DNA from: Pseudomonadota bacterium
GTDB lineage: Bacteria > Myxococcota_A > UBA796 > SXON01
Assembly (NCBI GenBank): GCA_005776735.1
Contig: SXOM01000167.1
Span: 1 to 32,064, forward strand
DNA: 32,064 nucleotides
Direction: 5' to 3'
This document shows, in pieces, positions 1,687-32,009 of the stretch. The position numbers and the translations under genes are program-made. Numbering within the stretch: the first letter of the stretch is position 1; each line of letters opens with the position of its first letter. The notes below the pieces were generated by a model. It was not told where the DNA came from and did not search any database. It saw only the letters and a list, made by a program, of their open reading frames with translations.

Positions 1687-2606
1687 TGTTGATCGCCCTG
1701 TTCGCGTCCGCCCTCGCCGTGCCGGTGGCCGAGTGCCCCCGGCCGTTCACCTCCGCCGAGCTCTTGGCCGCGGCGGATGCGGCCGAGCGGCGCTTCGAAG
1801 AGCAGGACCCCGAAGGGTTCGACGCCGCGAGTCGCGAAGTGCAGGCACGACTCGGCTGCGTGGCCGATCCGCTCTCGGCACTCGACGTGGTGCGGGTGCA
1901 GCGGGTCATGGCGCTCGGTGCATTTTTTGCGCAGAACGACGCGCGGATGCGCGCCGCGGTCGCGGCGATGGTGCAGGTCGACATCACCGCACGTTTCCCC
2001 GAAAATGTGATTCCCAGTGGGCACAAGCTCGACAAGCTGGTCGACGAGCTGGCCGGCCTGCCCCACTCCGAGGGCACGCCGCTGCGCAGCTTCCCCGACG
2101 GCTGGATCGAGGTCAACGGGGCCTATGCGCCCACCGTCGCGGCCGACGTGTCGGCCACGCTCCAGCGGCTCGACAACCAGGGGAAGGTGGTGGAAACCCG
2201 GTACTGGACCCCGGGCGACGATCTCGGGGATTGGGTGTCTGCAACCGGGCAGACTACCGATGTTCCGCCGCCGCCGCAGGCGCGAAAGCGGCCCCCGGTC
2301 AAGCTCCCCGGCAAGGCGACGCCGGGGGCCACCACGCCCGGAAAGCTCACGACCGGGGCCCAGATCGCGAAGGAGAACGCGACCGCGCGCCACACCGCGC
2401 TCATCGCCTCCAGCGGCACCGCGCTCGTCGCGACCGGCGTCGTGTACGCCCTCGCCGCCGATGCCAAGAGCAGGGCGTTGGACCCCCAGGTTCCCGAGGT
2501 CGAAGCGATGGCGTGGCGCGACCAGGCCAACGGCCTCACCTGGGGGTGGATCGCGGGCTCGGTGGTGAGCGGCGGCTTGATGACCACGCTCGTGGTCACC
2601 TGGTAG
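1686..2606 (+). CDS. Secreted/membrane protein of unknown function
   Basis: I do not recognise this 306-residue protein. Starting from GTG 1686 (or TTG 1689) it begins MLIALFASALAVPVAECPRP, a short hydrophobic signal-like segment. The following ~190 residues are soluble with regular helices and carry conserved-looking Cys pairs only near the N-terminus. A Pro/Lys-rich linker (residues ~195-225) leads to two hydrophobic stretches: TALIASSGTALVATGVVYALAA, then GWIAGSVVSGGLMTTLVVTW at the extreme C-terminus. A periplasmic domain anchored by a C-terminal helical hairpin is a reasonable reading. The open frame extends far upstream to 1131, but that part overlaps the PfaD gene antisense and lacks coding character, so the start was placed at the signal segment. 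It is followed after 86 bases by the large lipoprotein gene. Confidence 0.7.
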   Translation: MLIALFASALAVPVAECPRPFTSAELLAAADAAERRFEEQDPEGFDAASREVQARLGCVADPLSALDVVRVQRVMALGAFFAQNDARMRAAVAAMVQVDITARFPENVIPSGHKLDKLVDELAGLPHSEGTPLRSFPDGWIEVNGAYAPTVAADVSATLQRLDNQGKVVETRYWTPGDDLGDWVSATGQTTDVPPPPQARKRPPVKLPGKATPGATTPGKLTTGAQIAKENATARHTALIASSGTALVATGVVYALAADAKSRALDPQVPEVEAMAWRDQANGLTWGWIAGSVVSGGLMTTLVVTW

Positions 2607-2647
2607 CGGGGGGGCCGGCCCGGCGCGACGGCGGGGCGTCCGCCGGC

Positions 2648-2653
2648 TATAAA
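2648..2653 (+). promoter_or_regulatory. Possible -10 element for the MopE/lamin-tail lipoprotein gene
   Basis: TATAAA lies 39 bases before the ATG at 2693 in an otherwise very GC-rich gap. A GAGG at 2684-2687 gives a plausible ribosome binding site five bases before the ATG. There is no convincing -35. Confidence 0.35.
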
Positions 2654-2692
2654 GGAGACACCCGCGCGTCCGACTCCAACGTCGAGGTCTCC

Positions 2693-5600
2693 ATGCTCCG
2701 TACCCGTCTCGTGGCCCCCGGCCTGCTCCTCCTCCTCGCCGCCTGCGCCGAGGCGCCGGTCGGGGACACCTCGCTGGACTCCGCACGCCCGGGTGTCGAC
2801 ACCGCCGGTGCCGCCAAGGTGATCGTCTCCAGCGCCGACGGCGACGGCGACGGCTACGACTCGAGCGTCGACTGCGACGACACCAACGCGAGCATCAACC
2901 CCGGGGCGGCGGAGTCCGACAACCTCACCGACGACGACTGCGACGGGTATGTCGACGAAGACTTCGTCGCGGCGGGCGACGTCCTCATCACCGAGGTCAA
3001 CAAGCGCTCGTTCGTGGGCGGCACGCTGGTGCAGTACAACGCGTCCTGGGTCGAGGTGTACAACAACAGCACGCGCACCGTCGACATGTCGAACTGGACC
3101 ATCGCGCGCGGCCACAGCACCGGGCAGCAGGTCGCGCTCGATCCCGCGTCGGCGCCGATCCTCGCCCCTGGCGACTACGCGGTCTTCTGCGACACCAACG
3201 ACTACGAGGGCAGCGCGGCCGCCTACCCGCTCACCTGCGACTACTACTGGGGCGACGAGTCCCAGGCGGCCACCTACCAGGGCGCGTACCACAACAACGT
3301 CTGGTACATGCGCAAGGACTCCGACGCCTTCGCGCTCTACGTCAATGGCAACCGCAGCACCGGCACGTTGGTCGACAAGGTCGACTACTACTACGACGCC
3401 ACCAGCGGCTACTGGCCGTACCAGGTGCGGTTCTCGATGTCGCTCGACCCGGCGTACTACGACGCCACGCTCAACGACAACGTCGGCGCGTGGTGCACCA
3501 CCAACGAAAACGCCTCCAACCTCGGCGTGCCGAGCACCACCTACCGCTGGTACGACGTCTCCGGCTCGGCCTACGACGAGTACGGCACCCCGGGCGCCGA
3601 AGGCACCGACTGCCAGAACGACCCCGACCTCGACGGCGACAGCTACAGCGGCGCCACCGACTGTGACGACGGCGACGCCGCGATCAACCCCGGCGCCACC
3701 GAGGTGTGCGACGGGGTCGACAACGACTGCGACGGGAACGTCGACAACGCGGGCGGCTACCTCGACGCCGACCTCGACGGCTACGGCGATCCCGCGTCGC
3801 CGGGCGGCTGCTCGGGGTCGGGCACCTACGTCACCAACAGCGACGACTGCGACGACACCAACGCCGCGGTGAGCCCCGCCGAGGTCGAAGCCGACAACCT
3901 GGTCGACGACGACTGTGACGGCTGGGTCGACGAAGACTTCGTCGCCGCCGGCGACCTCGTCATCAACGAGATCAACAAGCGCACGCTCAACGGCGGCACG
4001 GCGCTGGACAACGACGGGAGCTGGGTCGAGGTCTACAACACCTCGGCGCGCTCGGTGAGCCTCGCCAACTGGGTCTTCGCCCGCGGCACGAGCTCCTCGG
4101 GCAACCAGATCTACGTCGACCCGGACACGGCGCCGGTGGTGGCGGCGGGCGGGTACGCGCTGTTGTGCGACTCCAACGACTTCGAAGGGAGCGCGGTCAC
4201 CTACCCGTTGGCCTGCGACTACTACTGGGGCGACGAGAGCCAGGCCGCCACCTACGTGGGCACCTACCACGACAACACGTTCTACATCCGTCGCGACGCC
4301 GACACGCTCGCGCTGTACATCGGTGGCGACCGGACCACGGGCACGCTGATGGACAGCGTGGTGTACGCGTCGGGGTGGCCGAGCAAGGCCCGCTGGTCGA
4401 TCGGGCTCGACCCCGACACGCAGGACACCACGAGCAACGACAGCTCCGCGTCGTGGTGCAACACCAACCTCGGCGTCGAGAGCGACAGCTACCGGTGGTG
4501 GGACAGCTCGGGCACCACGCACGACGAGTACGGCACGCCCGGGGCCGCCAACTACGACTGCGCCACCGACCTCGACGGCGACGGCTACGACACCACCACC
4601 GACTGCGACGACACCGACAACACGATCAACCCCGGCGCGACCGAGGTGTGCGACGGCGTCGACAACGACTGCGACACCCTCATCGACGAGGGCCTGGGCG
4701 GCACGACCTACTACGCCGACGCCGACGCCGACACCTACGGCGATCTGGCCACCACCACCACGAGCTGCTCGGGTAGCCCGCCGGTGGGCTACGTCGCCGA
4801 CAGCACCGACTGCGACGACACCGACGCCAGCGTCAACCCCGCGGCCACCGAGGTGTGCGGCGACGGCATCGACCAGGACTGCGTCGACAACAGCGCAGTG
4901 TGCGAGTTCTCCGGCACGCAGGAGATCAAGGCGGCCTACGACTTCCGGGCCTACGGCACCGCCGCGAACATGGCGGTCGGCACCGCGGTGTGCAACAACG
5001 GCGACTACGACGGCGACGGTTACGACGACGTGGTCGTGGGCCAGGGCTTCTACGACGGCACCGCCACCGACATGGGCCGGGTCAACCTGTGGTACGGCCC
5101 GGTCACCACCGCCGACGACCTCACGACCGCCGACTACACCATCGACGGCGACTCCAGCCGCAACAGCGACCAGTTCGGCTCGACCACCCGCTTCGCCGGC
5201 GACGTCGACAACGACGGCAGCGACGACCTGTTCGCGGCCGCGTGGCGTTCGCACGCCGACGACCGCGGCACCGCCTACCTGTTCTACGGCGGCAACGCGT
5301 CGAGCTCGGTCAGCGGCGCCGACGCGAGCTTCAGCATGACCGGCACCACCACCTACGTCGGCTTCGCGCTCGACGGCGGCGACGCCGACGGCGACCTGCA
5401 GTCCGACGTCATCGTGAGCGCGTACGGCTACTCGTCCGGCGCGGGCCTGGTCGCCTACTACGACGCCACCACGATCAGCGGCGCGGAGGACCTGTCCACG
5501 TCGGCGACGGCGCTCTTCACCAGCGCCACCGCGGGCGAGAACCTCGGGTACTCCATCGCCATGGGCGACGTCGACAACGACGGCCTCGCCGACGCCATCC

Positions 5601-6265
5601 TCGGCGCGCCTTCGGCGTCGAGCGCCACCGCCACGGGCGGGGTGTACGTGTACCTCGGCCTCGGCTCGCTCACGGGCACGCTCGCCACGACCGCGGCCGA
5701 CTTCGTGCTCACCGGGGGCACTGCCGCCGATCGGGCCGGTCTCTCGGTCGCGGCGCTCGGCGACCACGACGGCGACGGCGCGGGCGACTTCGCCCTCGGC
5801 GCCGACAAGTCCGACCTCGCGTCGGCCGACGCAGGCGCGGTCTACATCATCACGACCTTGCCCACCGCGTCCAGCACCGCGGCGGCGGCGGCGGAGTCCA
5901 TCCTCACCGGCGAGGTCGCGTCCGACTTCTTCGGCCGCAGCGTGGCGAACGTCGGCGACGAGAACGGCGACGGCACCACCGAGATCATGGTGGGCGCGAC
6001 GGCGTGGGACTACGGCTCGCTCAGCGGCGCGGGCGCGGCCTACCTGTGGTACGGCCCGGTCGCGAGCGGCACCACGAGCGCGTCGACCTACGACGCCCGG
6101 TGGACGGGCGCGAACACCTCCGACGCGGTCGGCTACCAGCTGAGCGGCGGCGGCGACGTCAACAACGACGGCCTCGCGGACTGGATGTCGAGCGCCACGA
6201 GCTGGGACGGCTTCGGCTACCTCAACTCGGGTGGCTCGTGGTTGTACTACGGCCAAGGCCAGTAG
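2693..6265 (+). CDS. Large surface lipoprotein: MopE repeats, two lamin-tail domains, FG-GAP propeller
   Basis: The 1190-residue protein starts with a lipoprotein signal, MLRTRLVAPGLLLLLAAC, with the lipid-bearing Cys at residue 18. Domain order by eye: MopE-type putative metal-binding motif (~49-90), lamin-tail domain (~93-306, opening LITEVNKRSF and SWVEVYNNS), two MopE motifs (~312-416), a second lamin-tail domain (~418-619, LVINEINKRT, SWVEVYNTS), two more MopE motifs (~626-740), then seven FG-GAP blades (~766-1183) with calcium-site cores such as DYDGDGYDDVVVG and DVDNDGLADAILG. FG-GAP repeats form integrin-alpha-like beta-propellers. The two lamin-tail domains are clearly paralogous, so an internal duplication of a [MopE + lamin-tail] unit is likely. 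The ATG at 2693 was chosen over the much longer upstream frame because it directly precedes the lipobox. It is likely outer-membrane or cell-surface; ligand unknown. Confidence 0.9.
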   Translation: MLRTRLVAPGLLLLLAACAEAPVGDTSLDSARPGVDTAGAAKVIVSSADGDGDGYDSSVDCDDTNASINPGAAESDNLTDDDCDGYVDEDFVAAGDVLITEVNKRSFVGGTLVQYNASWVEVYNNSTRTVDMSNWTIARGHSTGQQVALDPASAPILAPGDYAVFCDTNDYEGSAAAYPLTCDYYWGDESQAATYQGAYHNNVWYMRKDSDAFALYVNGNRSTGTLVDKVDYYYDATSGYWPYQVRFSMSLDPAYYDATLNDNVGAWCTTNENASNLGVPSTTYRWYDVSGSAYDEYGTPGAEGTDCQNDPDLDGDSYSGATDCDDGDAAINPGATEVCDGVDNDCDGNVDNAGGYLDADLDGYGDPASPGGCSGSGTYVTNSDDCDDTNAAVSPAEVEADNLVDDDCDGWVDEDFVAAGDLVINEINKRTLNGGTALDNDGSWVEVYNTSARSVSLANWVFARGTSSSGNQIYVDPDTAPVVAAGGYALLCDSNDFEGSAVTYPLACDYYWGDESQAATYVGTYHDNTFYIRRDADTLALYIGGDRTTGTLMDSVVYASGWPSKARWSIGLDPDTQDTTSNDSSASWCNTNLGVESDSYRWWDSSGTTHDEYGTPGAANYDCATDLDGDGYDTTTDCDDTDNTINPGATEVCDGVDNDCDTLIDEGLGGTTYYADADADTYGDLATTTTSCSGSPPVGYVADSTDCDDTDASVNPAATEVCGDGIDQDCVDNSAVCEFSGTQEIKAAYDFRAYGTAANMAVGTAVCNNGDYDGDGYDDVVVGQGFYDGTATDMGRVNLWYGPVTTADDLTTADYTIDGDSSRNSDQFGSTTRFAGDVDNDGSDDLFAAAWRSHADDRGTAYLFYGGNASSSVSGADASFSMTGTTTYVGFALDGGDADGDLQSDVIVSAYGYSSGAGLVAYYDATTISGAEDLSTSATALFTSATAGENLGYSIAMGDVDNDGLADAILGAPSASSATATGGVYVYLGLGSLTGTLATTAADFVLTGGTAADRAGLSVAALGDHDGDGAGDFALGADKSDLASADAGAVYIITTLPTASSTAAAAAESILTGEVASDFFGRSVANVGDENGDGTTEIMVGATAWDYGSLSGAGAAYLWYGPVASGTTSASTYDARWTGANTSDAVGYQLSGGGDVNNDGLADWMSSATSWDGFGYLNSGGSWLYYGQGQ

Positions 6266-6612
6266 TGCCGGGGGGGCCGGCCGACATCGACGCGGCCCTC
6301 GCGGCGGCGACGCCCGAGGCCGCGGCGGTCCTGGCCGAGATTCGTCGCCGGGTCAAGGCGGCGGTTCCCGACGCGGCGGAGTGCATCGGCTACCAGATGC
6401 CCGCCTTCCGTCTCAAGCGCATTTTCTTCTACTTCGCGGCGTTCAAGAAGCACATCGGCGTATATCCCCCGCTTCGGGGCGACGCGGCGCTGGGGGCGGA
6501 GTGTGCGCCGTACCGGAACGAGAAGGGAAACCTCGCGTTCCCGCTCGACCGGCCGATCCCCTACGACCTGATCCAGCGGGTCGCGGTCGCCCTGGCCGCC
6601 GAAGCCGGGTAG
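6265..6612 (+). CDS. DUF1801 (YdhG/YjhX-like) family protein
   Basis: The 115-residue product shows the DUF1801 pattern: an N-terminal helical segment with the family's YQMPAFRLK, then FYFAAFKKHIGVYPP and the C-terminal KGNLAFPLDRPIPYDLIQRV. These are small cytoplasmic proteins. Some members are described as iron chaperones or YdhG-like, but the biochemical role is uncertain. The start is the GTG whose G is the last base of the preceding lipoprotein's TAG stop (TAGTG), giving a one-base overlap and suggesting reinitiation or translational coupling. Length matches the family. It converges on epmA, with seven bases between stop codons. Confidence 0.85.
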   Translation: MPGGPADIDAALAAATPEAAAVLAEIRRRVKAAVPDAAECIGYQMPAFRLKRIFFYFAAFKKHIGVYPPLRGDAALGAECAPYRNEKGNLAFPLDRPIPYDLIQRVAVALAAEAG

Positions 6613-6619
6613 CCGCGGT

Positions 6620-7459
6620 TCAGTCCGCTTCGTCGGGGAACCCCGCCGGTACGCGCACGTCCCGGATGTCGGTGGCGCCGGTGAGCGCCATCACGAGGCG
6701 GTCCACCCCGACGGCGATGCCGGCGCTGCGGGGGAATCGGTCCGACGCGTCGATCACCCCCACGTCGGTCGGGTGCGGCGCTCGCCCGCGCGCCGCGCGG
6801 GCCGCGGCGCTCGCGTCGAACCGGCGCGCGAGCTCGGGGCCGTCGCCGAGCTCGGAGAAGCCGTTGGCGAGCTCCAGGCCCCCCAGGTACAGCTCCAGGC
6901 GTTCGGCGACGGACCCACGCACTTCGGCCAGCGCGGCGTGCCGCGCCGGAAAGTCGAGCACCCAGGTCGGCGCGACCAGCGTCGGGTCGATCTGGTCGAC
7001 CCAGCGACGGTAGAAGGTGTCGTCGTCTTCGGGCACGTGCCCGCCGAACAACTCCGCCACGGTGGCCTGGTGGAAGTGTGGCCGCGCGACGCCCAACGCC
7101 TCGGCGGCGGCGTGCACCAGCCGCTCCACCACCGGGATCAGGTCCAGGTAGTTGGCATTGTGCAGGTACAACTCCAACATCGTGAACTCGCGGGCGTGGT
7201 GGCGCCCGCGCTCTTCGGCGCGGAAGACCGGCGTGATCGCGTAGATGCGCGGCAGGCCCGCGGCGAGCACCCGCTTCAGCGCGAACTCCGGCGAGGTGTG
7301 GAGCCACCCCTCCGCGCACGGCACGGCCTCGAGGTTCTCCTCGAGCGCGGGACCGGGCACGAGCACCGGCGGCTCGACCAGGACGAAGCCCTCCGCCCAG
7401 AGCGTCGTGTGCAACGCGCGTAGCACCGCCGCGCGTGCGCGCAGCAGGCCGACGTTCAC
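6620..7459 (-). CDS. epmA: EF-P (R)-beta-lysine ligase EpmA (PoxA/GenX)
   Basis: EpmA is a truncated class II lysyl-tRNA synthetase homologue that attaches beta-lysine to a conserved lysine of elongation factor P. The 279-residue protein keeps class II motif 2 (FRAEERG...HHAREFTMLE, residues ~79-97) and motif 3 (GIAVGVDRLVMALTG, ~247-261) and has no N-terminal anticodon-binding OB domain. That combination separates EpmA from LysS. The segment HTSPEFALKRVLAAGLPRIY is the family's substrate-site region. It is somewhat shorter than the ~325-residue E. coli protein, mainly at the N-terminus. The start is a GTG at 7459, 21 bases after the efp stop on the same strand, so efp-epmA form one operon. 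Confidence 0.92.
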   Translation of the reverse strand: MNVGLLRARAAVLRALHTTLWAEGFVLVEPPVLVPGPALEENLEAVPCAEGWLHTSPEFALKRVLAAGLPRIYAITPVFRAEERGRHHAREFTMLELYLHNANYLDLIPVVERLVHAAAEALGVARPHFHQATVAELFGGHVPEDDDTFYRRWVDQIDPTLVAPTWVLDFPARHAALAEVRGSVAERLELYLGGLELANGFSELGDGPELARRFDASAAARAARGRAPHPTDVGVIDASDRFPRSAGIAVGVDRLVMALTGATDIRDVRVPAGFPDEAD

Positions 7460-29419: not shown

Positions 29420-30109
29420 GTGCGGATCGGGACGTGGAACCTCGAAGGGCGATGGGACCCCCGGCACCGTGATCTTCTGGAGAGGTCGGACTGCGACGTC
29501 TGGCTGCTCACCGAGGTGCGCGAGGACGTCGCGCTCGTCGGGTACGTCGGGCACTTCAGCGCGGCCTCGGCCCCCGGGAGGGCGGTACGCTACGCGGCGG
29601 TCTTGACCCGGGGGGCGGCCGAGCCTGTGGCGAACCTGCACGGCGCGAGCGCGGCCGTCCGGGTCGGTGGGGTGGTGTACTGCAGCTCGGTCCTTCCGTG
29701 GCGCGCGTGTGGGGCGCAGGCGCCGTGGTGCGGCGCCAACCACGCGGAGCGAACGGCGGCTGCGGTCGATGCGCTGATGGCCGCCCTGCCCGACGACCCG
29801 CTGGTGTGGGGCGGGGACTGGAACCATGCGCTCGGGGGGCGCGAGTACGCCGGGAGTGCCGCAGGTCGGGCCCGAATCCTGGAGGCCGTGGAACGTCGAG
29901 GGTTGTGGGTGCCCACCCGAGCGCTCCCCCACCGCATCGAGGGGCTCGTGAGCATCGACCACATCGCCTTGCCGCAGGGGGTGTCCGCGACGGCCCACGC
30001 GGTGTCGGCGGTGGTCGACGGCGTGGCCTTGTCCGACCACGATCTGTACCTGGTGGAGGGTGTCGAATTGGAGCTCGCGCACCGGTCGCCCGCGGGGGGA
30101 GGGGAGTAG
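29420..30109 (+). CDS. Endonuclease/exonuclease/phosphatase (EEP) family protein
   Basis: The 229-residue protein has the EEP metal and catalytic residues: N7 in TWNLEG, E32 in WLLTEV, D133 and N135 in WGGDWNHAL, D180/H181 in SIDHIAL, and D206-H207 in SDHDLY. The fold includes nucleases, sphingomyelinases and lipid phosphatases; short single-domain members like this one are of unknown substrate. There is no signal peptide, so it is probably cytoplasmic. It starts at GTG 29420 directly after the poly-G tract. The 167-base gap that follows contains REP-like copy B. Confidence 0.85.
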   Translation: MRIGTWNLEGRWDPRHRDLLERSDCDVWLLTEVREDVALVGYVGHFSAASAPGRAVRYAAVLTRGAAEPVANLHGASAAVRVGGVVYCSSVLPWRACGAQAPWCGANHAERTAAAVDALMAALPDDPLVWGGDWNHALGGREYAGSAAGRARILEAVERRGLWVPTRALPHRIEGLVSIDHIALPQGVSATAHAVSAVVDGVALSDHDLYLVEGVELELAHRSPAGGGE

Positions 30110-30276: not shown

Positions 30277-30684
30277 TTGCCGAGATACCTGCCGTTCGTG
30301 GACCCGCGCTGCCCGTTCTGCGTCCCCGACCCCGGCTGCCTGGTTCGGCGAGGCGCGCTCACGACGTCGCTTCGCGATGCTTACCCGCTCACGGAGGGGC
30401 ACTCGCTCGTGACCCCCGCACGGCACGTCGCGTGCCTGTTCGACCTGTCGTCGGCAGAGCGTGAGGCCGTCTGGGACGAGGTCGGCCGGGTCCGCGCCGA
30501 CCTGATGCGGAACCTCGGCGTCGAGGCGTTCAACATCGGGCTCAACGACGGCGTCGCCGCGGGCCAGACCGTCCTGCACGCCCACGTCCACGTGATTCCG
30601 CGGCGCCCGGGCGACGTTCCGGATCCCCGCGGCGGGGTCCGCTGGGTAGTCCCCACACGCGCTGCGTGGTGGGAGTCCCCGTGA
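30277..30684 (+). CDS. HIT-family nucleotide hydrolase/transferase
   Basis: The 135-residue protein carries the histidine-triad motif HAHVHVIPRR (H101, H103, H105), with the nucleotide-binding FNIGLNDGVAAGQTV before it and an N-terminal CPFC (C12, C15). HIT proteins cleave or transfer nucleoside phosphates from substrates such as dinucleoside polyphosphates or AMP conjugates. The ending DVPDPRGGVRWVVPTRAAWW marks a subgroup I associate with accessory, nuclease- or helicase-linked loci (recollection, not checked). The start is TTG 30277 or GTG 30298. Its stop overlaps the HNH gene's GTG by four bases (GTGA 30681-30684), so the two are translationally coupled. Confidence 0.88.
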   Translation: MPRYLPFVDPRCPFCVPDPGCLVRRGALTTSLRDAYPLTEGHSLVTPARHVACLFDLSSAEREAVWDEVGRVRADLMRNLGVEAFNIGLNDGVAAGQTVLHAHVHVIPRRPGDVPDPRGGVRWVVPTRAAWWESP

Positions 30685-31739
30685 GCCCGTGGGCGCCCCC
30701 GGCGCCGCAGGCGCAGGTCGAGTTCCTGCTGACGCTACAGCGGCTCCTCGCCGAGGGGAGCTTCGTCGCGACCTACAAGTTCGCCCTCCTGCACGCGCTC
30801 GCAGACCTCGCCCTCGTGAAAGGGGACGACTCTGGAGCGCCGCTGGCGCTGTCGACGGCGGACATCAGCAGCAGGATGGCCGAGTTGTACTGGCGCCAGG
30901 CCGCGCCGTATTCCGGTGGGACCCATCGCCATGAGGTGCTTCGTCACGCGACAGGCAGCCAGGCAGCCATCGTGAACGAGCTGCTGGCCGCGCGGCAGGA
31001 TGCAGAGGGTTCGCTGTCGCGCTTCCGTCGCGACCCGGCAGCATGGTGGGCGCTCGTGCGGCGCGTTGATCGGGTCGTTCGGCAGATGCCGCTGTGGAAG
31101 CTTCAGACCGTCGGCACCGAGCGTTTGGGCTTCCTATACGACAACGTGGACGGGGGGACGTCCATCGAGCTCAAGCCGGGCGTGGCGTGGTGTCTCCGCG
31201 CCTACTACAGCCTTGTCACCGAGCTCGTCAGGAGTGCGTGGCTGCGGTTCATCCGCCGGCACAACCCCGGATTGGAGTCTGGTGCGGACCTCGGCACGTT
31301 CCTGTTCGGCGGCGAACGCTGCGACCTGTCGCCCTACCTGCCGTTGCTCCGCGAGGTTCAACGCGGCGAGTGTTTCTACTGCGAACGGCGGCTGGTGGGC
31401 GAGGGGGCCGCGGTGGATCACTTCATCCCCTGGTCTCGCTACTCCGTGGATCTCGGACACAACTTCGTGCTGGCGCACGGGACCTGCAACGGGCGGAAGT
31501 CGGATCTCCTCGCGGCGGAGCGCCACCTCGAGCGGTGGGTGGAGCGCAACGAACGGACAGGTCTGTGGCTGGCCGAGGCATTCGGCGAGGCGGGCCTCCC
31601 CGCGGACATGGACGCGTCGGTCGGCGTCGCCCGATGGGCCTACGCACAGACCGCGCGGGCCAACGGGCAGGTGTGGACGCACGGCACCGAGCTGGAGCAC
31701 CTTTCCGGCTCGTGGATGACGTTGCTCGCAGCGTCGTGA
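30681..31739 (+). CDS. HNH endonuclease with large N-terminal helical domain
   Basis: The 352-residue protein has an HNH fold in its C-terminal third: CFYC (231-234), VDHFIPWSR (D246, H247), NFVLAHGTCNGRKSD (N261, H266, C269, N270, K273). This is a zinc-linked ββα-metal nuclease. Residues 1-225 are mostly helical (QVEFLLTLQRLLAEGSFVAT, YKFALLHALADLAL) with no recognised domain; they may sense or bind a partner. The start GTG 30681 gives a 4-base overlap with the HIT gene; GTG 30666 and 30669 are in frame but longer. No methylase or helicase is adjacent, so it is not a classical restriction system. A defence role is inferred only. Confidence 0.82.
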   Translation: MSPWAPPAPQAQVEFLLTLQRLLAEGSFVATYKFALLHALADLALVKGDDSGAPLALSTADISSRMAELYWRQAAPYSGGTHRHEVLRHATGSQAAIVNELLAARQDAEGSLSRFRRDPAAWWALVRRVDRVVRQMPLWKLQTVGTERLGFLYDNVDGGTSIELKPGVAWCLRAYYSLVTELVRSAWLRFIRRHNPGLESGADLGTFLFGGERCDLSPYLPLLREVQRGECFYCERRLVGEGAAVDHFIPWSRYSVDLGHNFVLAHGTCNGRKSDLLAAERHLERWVERNERTGLWLAEAFGEAGLPADMDASVGVARWAYAQTARANGQVWTHGTELEHLSGSWMTLLAAS

Positions 31740-31761: not shown

Positions 31762-32009
31762 TCATCCGCCGCGCGGCGAGAAGGGTCGTGCATGCTCGGC
31801 GAACCAGCGCGGGAAGTCGCCGGGGCCGTCGTGGGCGCGCGTGGCGCGGTCCACGCGCGTGGGATCCGGCCAGATGCCGAAGTCGCCGACGTGCAGGACG
31901 TGTGCGAACCTCTCCCCAGCGCCGCCTCGAAGGCGAGCACATCCGCGTAGAGGCGGTCGAGGGCGCCGTGGATGTCGCCCGCGGCGCAGTAGAGGGGGCG
32001 GCTGCTCAT
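31762..32009 (-). pseudogene. Truncated, frameshifted metallophosphoesterase
   Basis: From ATG 32009 the frame reads MSSRPLYCAAGDIHGALDRL, with the calcineurin-type motif GDIHG. Coding then continues in another frame as RFAHVLHVGDFGIWPDPTR and FPRWFAEHARPFSPRGG, with the second metal motif GDFG. One base appears lost in the G-run near 31916-31920. The frame ends at a TGA at 31762, well before the GNHE motif that should follow, so the 3' half is gone. The loss borders the HNH gene, suggesting that the HIT-HNH insertion or a deletion cut it. Confidence 0.75.

Follow-up and report, generated by a model that had tools for sequence, protein, structure and literature searches.

The window, a stretch of 32,064 bp that is one whole contig, carries close to one end two genes of the same strand (Table 1), the first for a HIT protein and the second for an HNH endonuclease with a conserved N-terminal domain, for which we use the name STYK-HNH. 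The four-base overlap of stop and start signals reported in the preliminary description is present in the sequence and couples both genes. The contig ends 325 nt past the HNH gene, and just 3' of the latter, on the opposite strand, is a metallophosphoesterase gene that is truncated, as had been noted: its homology to two related genomes, in which the homologues are open frames of 308 aa (G004) and 293 aa (G021), stops at about position 31804, and a frameshift lies at about 31902-31926. A gene shortened and frameshifted in this way fits an insertion of the pair, and the break at 31804 is probably the junction of the inserted module. The HNH protein of the window is 54-56% identical to proteins from other phyla, as against 34-37% to those of its own genus or family that align over their full length, and the window HIT also groups with other phyla in the HIT tree. 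Together, these sequence comparisons point to lateral acquisition of the window copy. Composition gives no sign of such a transfer, since GC3 (0.88 for HIT and 0.86 for HNH) is near that of the three upstream genes (0.89-0.91). The only defence neighbour seen in the window itself, which extends 325 nt downstream, is the endonuclease/exonuclease/phosphatase-family gene. Its homologue in another genome (G006, 62% identity) adjoins two helicases, one of them a HIT-PLD (SauUSI-like) protein; the gene may be part of the same defence theme as the pair, its membership of the module being uncertain.

Table 1. Features of the HIT-HNH locus, with positions in the window
Feature	Positions	Strand	Remarks
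Endonuclease/exonuclease/phosphatase-family gene	29420..30109	+	Pfam Exo_endo_phos 1.2e-6
HIT gene	30277..30684	+	TTG start, 135 aa; Pfam HIT 4.5e-17
GTGA overlap, HIT stop/HNH start	30681..30684	+	couples both genes; read from sequence
HNH endonuclease with conserved N-terminal domain (STYK-HNH)	30681..31739	+	GTG start, 352 aa; Pfam HNH 7e-5
HNH N-terminal domain, residues ~1-215	30681..31325	+	invariant Y32 K33 A35 P137 Q142 W187 L204 F209 R213; no known fold found
HNH core, residues 231-275	31371..31505	+	CFYC...VDHFIPW...HNFVLAHGTCNGRK
Metallophosphoesterase gene, 5' part, shortened and frameshifted	31804..32009	-	DNA homology to G004/G021 ends 31804-31814

The HIT triad had been called intact and is so: within a HIT fold recognised by Pfam, none of the 47 aligned relatives departs from H101-x-H103-x-H105, as expected of the HIT superfamily. 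The aligned partner HITs also share a C-terminal motif, D(P)RGGVRWVxPxKAxYW, of which the D-P-R-G-G-V-R-W-V part is almost invariant. In 94 related genomes, 23 matches to the HIT alignment are strong (154-196 bits), and all others score 100 bits or less. Twenty genomes that carry the nuclease were checked, and every one has weaker HIT genes; in 16 of the 17 among them that carry the pair, a strong copy (169-214 bits) is present in addition, and G103 (locus L056), the remaining one, has HIT fragments only. The bit-score gap and the extra copies set the partner HIT apart from the housekeeping enzyme as a discrete subfamily, and wherever it is intact in the pair-carrying genomes checked it is extra to housekeeping HIT. 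A HIT gene of this type is also found in the Streptomyces phage phiSASD1 (L233:4054-5381), where it follows a PAPS-reductase-like (AANH) gene and has a dNMP kinase gene nearby; the group is a possible nucleotide-modification cluster.

The nuclease assignment is borne out by the Pfam match to residues 231-275 and by conservation of the motif. The 47 aligned sequences all have C231, C234, D246 and H247, and N261, C269, N270 and K273 are found in every sequence that covers them, so that the catalytic histidine and the metal-binding Asp/Asn motif of the HNH superfamily (D246/H247 invariant, N261/N270 conserved) are in place; the core pattern of the family reads CFYC..VDHF.P..N..A..CN..K. The N-terminal part has as its conserved features a TYK-A(L/V) motif at about residue 31 and the single residues from P137 to R213 listed in Table 1. 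Its approximately 220 residues have no match in Pfam, NCBIfam, PADLOC or PHROGs. An AlphaFold2 model of the nuclease (pLDDT 94.3, pTM 0.92), compared as a whole with the PDB and with viral models by Foldseek, matched them only around the HNH core, and no match had an E below 0.001. The preliminary description had spoken of an unrecognised helical N-terminus and had proposed a structure-based search: the region is indeed unrecognised, this search having returned no known fold beyond the HNH core, and it is helical in the main in the model, not purely. Neither the profile libraries nor the whole-model Foldseek search found a known modification-sensor domain (EVE, SRA, NEco or wH) in it, though the region may yet have a wH-like fold. 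The Foldseek matches include Cas9 HNH domains (probability 1.00, E 0.008 or weaker); membership of Cas9/IscB was rejected, the similarity being confined to the core domain.

Relatives of the nuclease occur in 12 of the 94 related genomes searched, and a further search of genome contigs gave 348, the best 80 of which were kept. In PLSDB, 28 plasmid records match the nuclease, most of the protein being covered in 13. A phage collection of 50,697 records holds no relative, and viral contigs hold three close ones (L117-L119, 36-41%), all of the methyltransferase type described below, the other viral matches being weak and mostly to the HNH core.

Neighbours were examined at 94 loci of the HNH family. 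A HIT gene lies upstream of the nuclease, on the same strand, in 44 of them, and these loci span at least 10 phyla (Planctomycetota, Verrucomicrobiota, Gemmatimonadota, Acidobacteriota, Pseudomonadota, Thermodesulfobacteriota, Ignavibacteriota, Omnitrophota, Eiseniibacteriota and Krumholzibacteriota). With starts set by rule, the inferred HNH start is no more than 15 nt from the HIT stop in 35 of the 43 other pairs. The two genes thus behave as a unit whose pairing is kept across phyla. Distances between HIT proteins show a modest correlation with those between the HNH proteins (Mantel r 0.33, p 2e-4), which indicates that the two are not strictly co-inherited. The genes stand 1-2 kb apart in L064 and L095, and in L007 they are oriented towards each other.

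The place of HIT upstream of the nuclease can be filled by other genes. In 33 of the 94 loci, mostly from Acinetobacter (methyltransferase-type loci among L027, L029, L033, L035 and L073-L119), it holds a gene for a class I SAM methyltransferase (about 195 aa); HIT and methyltransferase occur together upstream of HNH in none of the 94. One planctomycete without HIT has a NADAR-domain gene directly upstream of the nuclease (L037:2905-3498, Pfam 3.4e-54), and a single locus, L043, has a nucleotidyltransferase gene there. HIT and HNH of a Burkholderiales genome are separated by a Fic/DOC gene (L064:6082-6723, Pfam 1.3e-17), which hints at AMPylation chemistry. In L056 only a fragment of HIT is left (120-665), with a four-helix-bundle-like gene after it; the nuclease and a SauUSI-like helicase of this locus are intact.

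The surroundings of the pair are rich in restriction and defence genes, and several HIT-HNH loci include type IV enzymes arranged as in an operon. GmrSD-like genes end 16 nt (L049) and 6 nt (L053) before HIT; the gene that gave the Pfam GmrSD match is a member of their cluster from L086. In L050 and L060 the start of HIT is overlapped by an EVE-HNH gene, the one in L060 being assigned through the same cluster, and the L050 protein matches PDB 6yex (E 9.8e-90), presumably the structure of VcaM4I. A SauUSI-like helicase and a NERD gene accompany the pair in L056, L074 and L079 (the NERD gene of L056 was read by eye), and a second HNH_2 family recurs in five loci. The presence of a type IV gene within the operon is confined to some of the HIT-HNH loci. 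The Acinetobacter nucleases of the methyltransferase type adjoin BREX, type I-F variant CRISPR and type I restriction genes. The 136 neighbours of HIT-HNH gave matches to 132 PADLOC models at a threshold of 1e-20, as against 27 for 145 genes around housekeeping HIT in nearly the same genomes, a coarse measure because the models overlap one another. The enrichment of defence genes near the pair, which had been proposed as a check, is thus seen against a matched control. The earlier proposal was to be given up if the pair were not conserved or had homologues only in housekeeping contexts; the pairs are found in at least 10 phyla and in restriction-rich neighbourhoods.

The same HIT subfamily is also part of much larger proteins. 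Twelve of the 23 strong HIT matches are the N-terminal part of proteins with PLD and SF2-helicase domains, of up to about 1,500 residues; some of these reading frames are broken or cut by contig ends, and that of L170 is intact. The L170 protein (2380-6627) has the Pfam domains HIT, PLDc_2, ResIII and Helicase_C together with a LexA/S24-like domain, and matches the PADLOC model mREase_IV (2.3e-97). In these fusions the LexA/S24-like domain stands close to the C-terminus, in the place of the DUF3427 of SauUSI; this architecture is unusual for a restriction enzyme. L030, a relative of L170, carries DUF3427. The helicase of L054 matches PDB 7clg (E 1.1e-83), which we take to be SauUSI. The gene next to HNH in L054 had been read, by eye only, as MazG-like; Pfam gave this no convincing support, and the reading was discarded. 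In a tree of 75 HIT domains (132 columns, with uncertain fine branching), the helicase-fused HITs are scattered, well-supported branches force at least five changes of context, and the AU test rejects a single clade of helicase-fused HITs (p-AU 0.001). These results show that HIT moved repeatedly between HNH-paired and helicase-fused contexts.

SauUSI (PLD-SF2 helicase-DUF3427, type IV) is therefore related to the pair through HIT, the same subfamily being fused in front of SauUSI-like proteins in relatives of the window, and SauUSI-like helicases also adjoin STYK-HNH genes. In contrast to SauUSI, which has PLD, SF2 helicase and DUF3427 in one protein, the window proteins have none of these domains; there is no PLD-helicase in the window, and the cutting protein is an HNH nuclease that lacks an ATPase. 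VcaM4I, an EVE-HNH modification-dependent endonuclease (PMC7897488), is likewise an HNH nuclease with an N-terminal domain, and its homologue in L050 is directly upstream of HIT-HNH; however, the HNH subfamilies differ (PF01844 as against PF13391) and no EVE domain was found in the window protein. The HIT protein ThsC of type II Thoeris is also tied to defence, and the window HIT matches the PADLOC ThsC model (1.2e-10), but only over the HIT core, without the C-terminal motif. ThsA and ThsB (SIR2/SLOG, TIR) are absent from the three upstream genes scanned and from the recurrent neighbour clusters, and membership of Thoeris was rejected, the similarity being that of a core domain with no ThsA/ThsB seen. 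PtuB, the HNH protein of Septu and retron I-A, has a weak likeness to the HNH core (PADLOC 2.7e-6); Septu was set aside as well, because the partner is HIT, no PtuA ATPase gene is adjacent and the N-terminal domain is unrelated. The statement that neither methylase nor helicase accompanies the pair holds for the three upstream genes scanned, which include no cognate methylase of a type I-III restriction-modification system, and downstream it covers 325 nt only. As for BREX, an Acinetobacter STYK-HNH gene lies just upstream of a BREX locus; a catalogue of BREX-associated HNH proteins lists GmrSD, standalone, wHTH/SRA-HNH and OLD-linked HNH variants, and HIT is not mentioned in the passages found (PMC12839542).

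Because the pairing is conserved, because its neighbours are restriction and defence genes when set against a matched control, and because the same HIT is fused to SauUSI-like nucleases, we consider it likely that HIT-HNH is a defence or restriction module, and we infer that phage is what it restricts. A link with the restriction of modified DNA is somewhat favoured, and the pair would probably be an accessory to, or a variant of, type IV modification-dependent restriction. In the fuller form of this reading, to which we give about even credence, HIT-HNH is a mobile two-gene module whose HNH protein cuts DNA and whose HIT protein removes nucleotidyl groups at or near the damage. The N-terminal domain of the nuclease would most likely recognise invading, probably modified, DNA, a presumed specificity, and the C-terminal core would make the breaks. 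HIT would work with the nuclease, outside any separate signal circuit, and would hydrolyse a nucleotidyl group, presumably of the AMP type, through its catalytic middle histidine, H103. Of the tasks considered, the likeliest is one at the damaged DNA itself, where HIT might, for instance, strip the 5'-adenylate installed by DNA ligase at a break, so that damage made by the nuclease stays unsealed. Action of HIT at DNA ends is a tentative suggestion, on the unlikely side: the PDB structures closest to the HIT profile are those of Fhit, HinT and Ap4A-phosphorylase, which counts against it, and the HIT matches in the PDB at E of 1e-6 or below include no molecule named as aprataxin, a DNA-end deadenylase. 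Moreover, a role purely at DNA ends leaves the methyltransferase in the HIT slot of 33 loci unexplained.

The chief rival, which we consider unlikely, places HIT in the nucleotide pool, where it would destroy nucleotides that are modified or unusual, or nucleotide sugars, whether the phage makes them or the nuclease frees them in digesting modified phage DNA, and so keep them out of host DNA and spare the host from a modification-dependent nuclease. HIT enzymes hydrolyse nucleotides, and this property of the family would suit such a task, as would the phiSASD1 HIT gene with its PAPS-reductase-like and dNMP kinase neighbours. A MutT nucleotide pyrophosphohydrolase adjoins SauUSI homologues in Streptococcus (PMC7641849) and speaks for the same idea. 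However, an enzyme of the pool needs no fusion to a nuclease, yet HIT is fused in the SauUSI-like relatives; genes for the synthesis of modified bases do not recur at the loci, and the methyltransferase alternative is no better explained than by a role at DNA ends. Still less likely is a post-translational switch, in which HIT, or elsewhere the methyltransferase or NADAR protein, modifies the nuclease or its target by attaching or detaching a group, such as AMP placed by Fic, and keeps the nuclease off until infection. One slot filled by exchangeable enzymes (HIT, methyltransferase, NADAR) would suit a switch of this kind, as would the Fic gene of L064, but Fic lies between the two genes in that locus only, no conserved acceptor was identified, and the sharing of HIT by unrelated nucleases makes a specific acceptor unlikely.

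The preliminary description had likened the pair to signal-controlled immunity, and this comparison is not borne out: no nucleotide-signal synthase is found among the recurrent neighbour clusters, the nucleotidyltransferase of L043 being the sole hint of one, and the SauUSI-, VcaM4I- and GmrSD-like partners sense modified DNA directly. That HIT breaks down, by hydrolysis, a second messenger by which HNH is activated, in the manner of the off-switch role proposed for ThsC of Thoeris II (PMC8565338), is improbable; the match to ThsC agrees with it, but lacks the C-terminal motif, TIR, SIR2 and nucleotide-cyclase families do not recur among the neighbours, and the nucleases that share HIT recognise DNA by themselves. 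HIT is fused or closely coupled to different nucleases and has been exchanged between unrelated ones, which speaks for a site of action at the DNA or the nuclease, in the nuclease-DNA complex, and against a signal circuit. Finally, although HIT genes are present in every genome checked and HNH genes are common and mobile, an ordinary housekeeping HIT beside an HNH gene by chance is hardly credible in view of 44 adjacent or near-adjacent pairs in at least 10 phyla and of a discrete subfamily additional to housekeeping HITs, and the bit-score gap and extra copies led us to reject a plain housekeeping HIT.

The open-licence literature searched yielded no account of HIT and HNH as a defence pair, and in PADLOC HIT is known only as ThsC and the nuclease is matched at its core only. 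HIT-HNH is very probably an antiviral module that has so far not been described. A compact pair present in many phyla, and missing from the defence libraries used, links a nucleotide-processing enzyme to several type IV families; if confirmed, the defence catalogue would gain a system. The finding raises the question of why one nucleotidyl-processing enzyme is gained again and again by nucleases that attack modified DNA, and of what allows a methyltransferase to stand in for it. One answer, which we regard as doubtful, is that the HIT subfamily is a general partner of DNA-destroying immunity, common to HNH, PLD-helicase, GmrSD and EVE-HNH nucleases, and that it processes ends or adducts, making cuts irreparable, or acts on modified DNA. 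If HIT is indeed a general partner of restriction nucleases, it would represent a functional layer of restriction so far undescribed.
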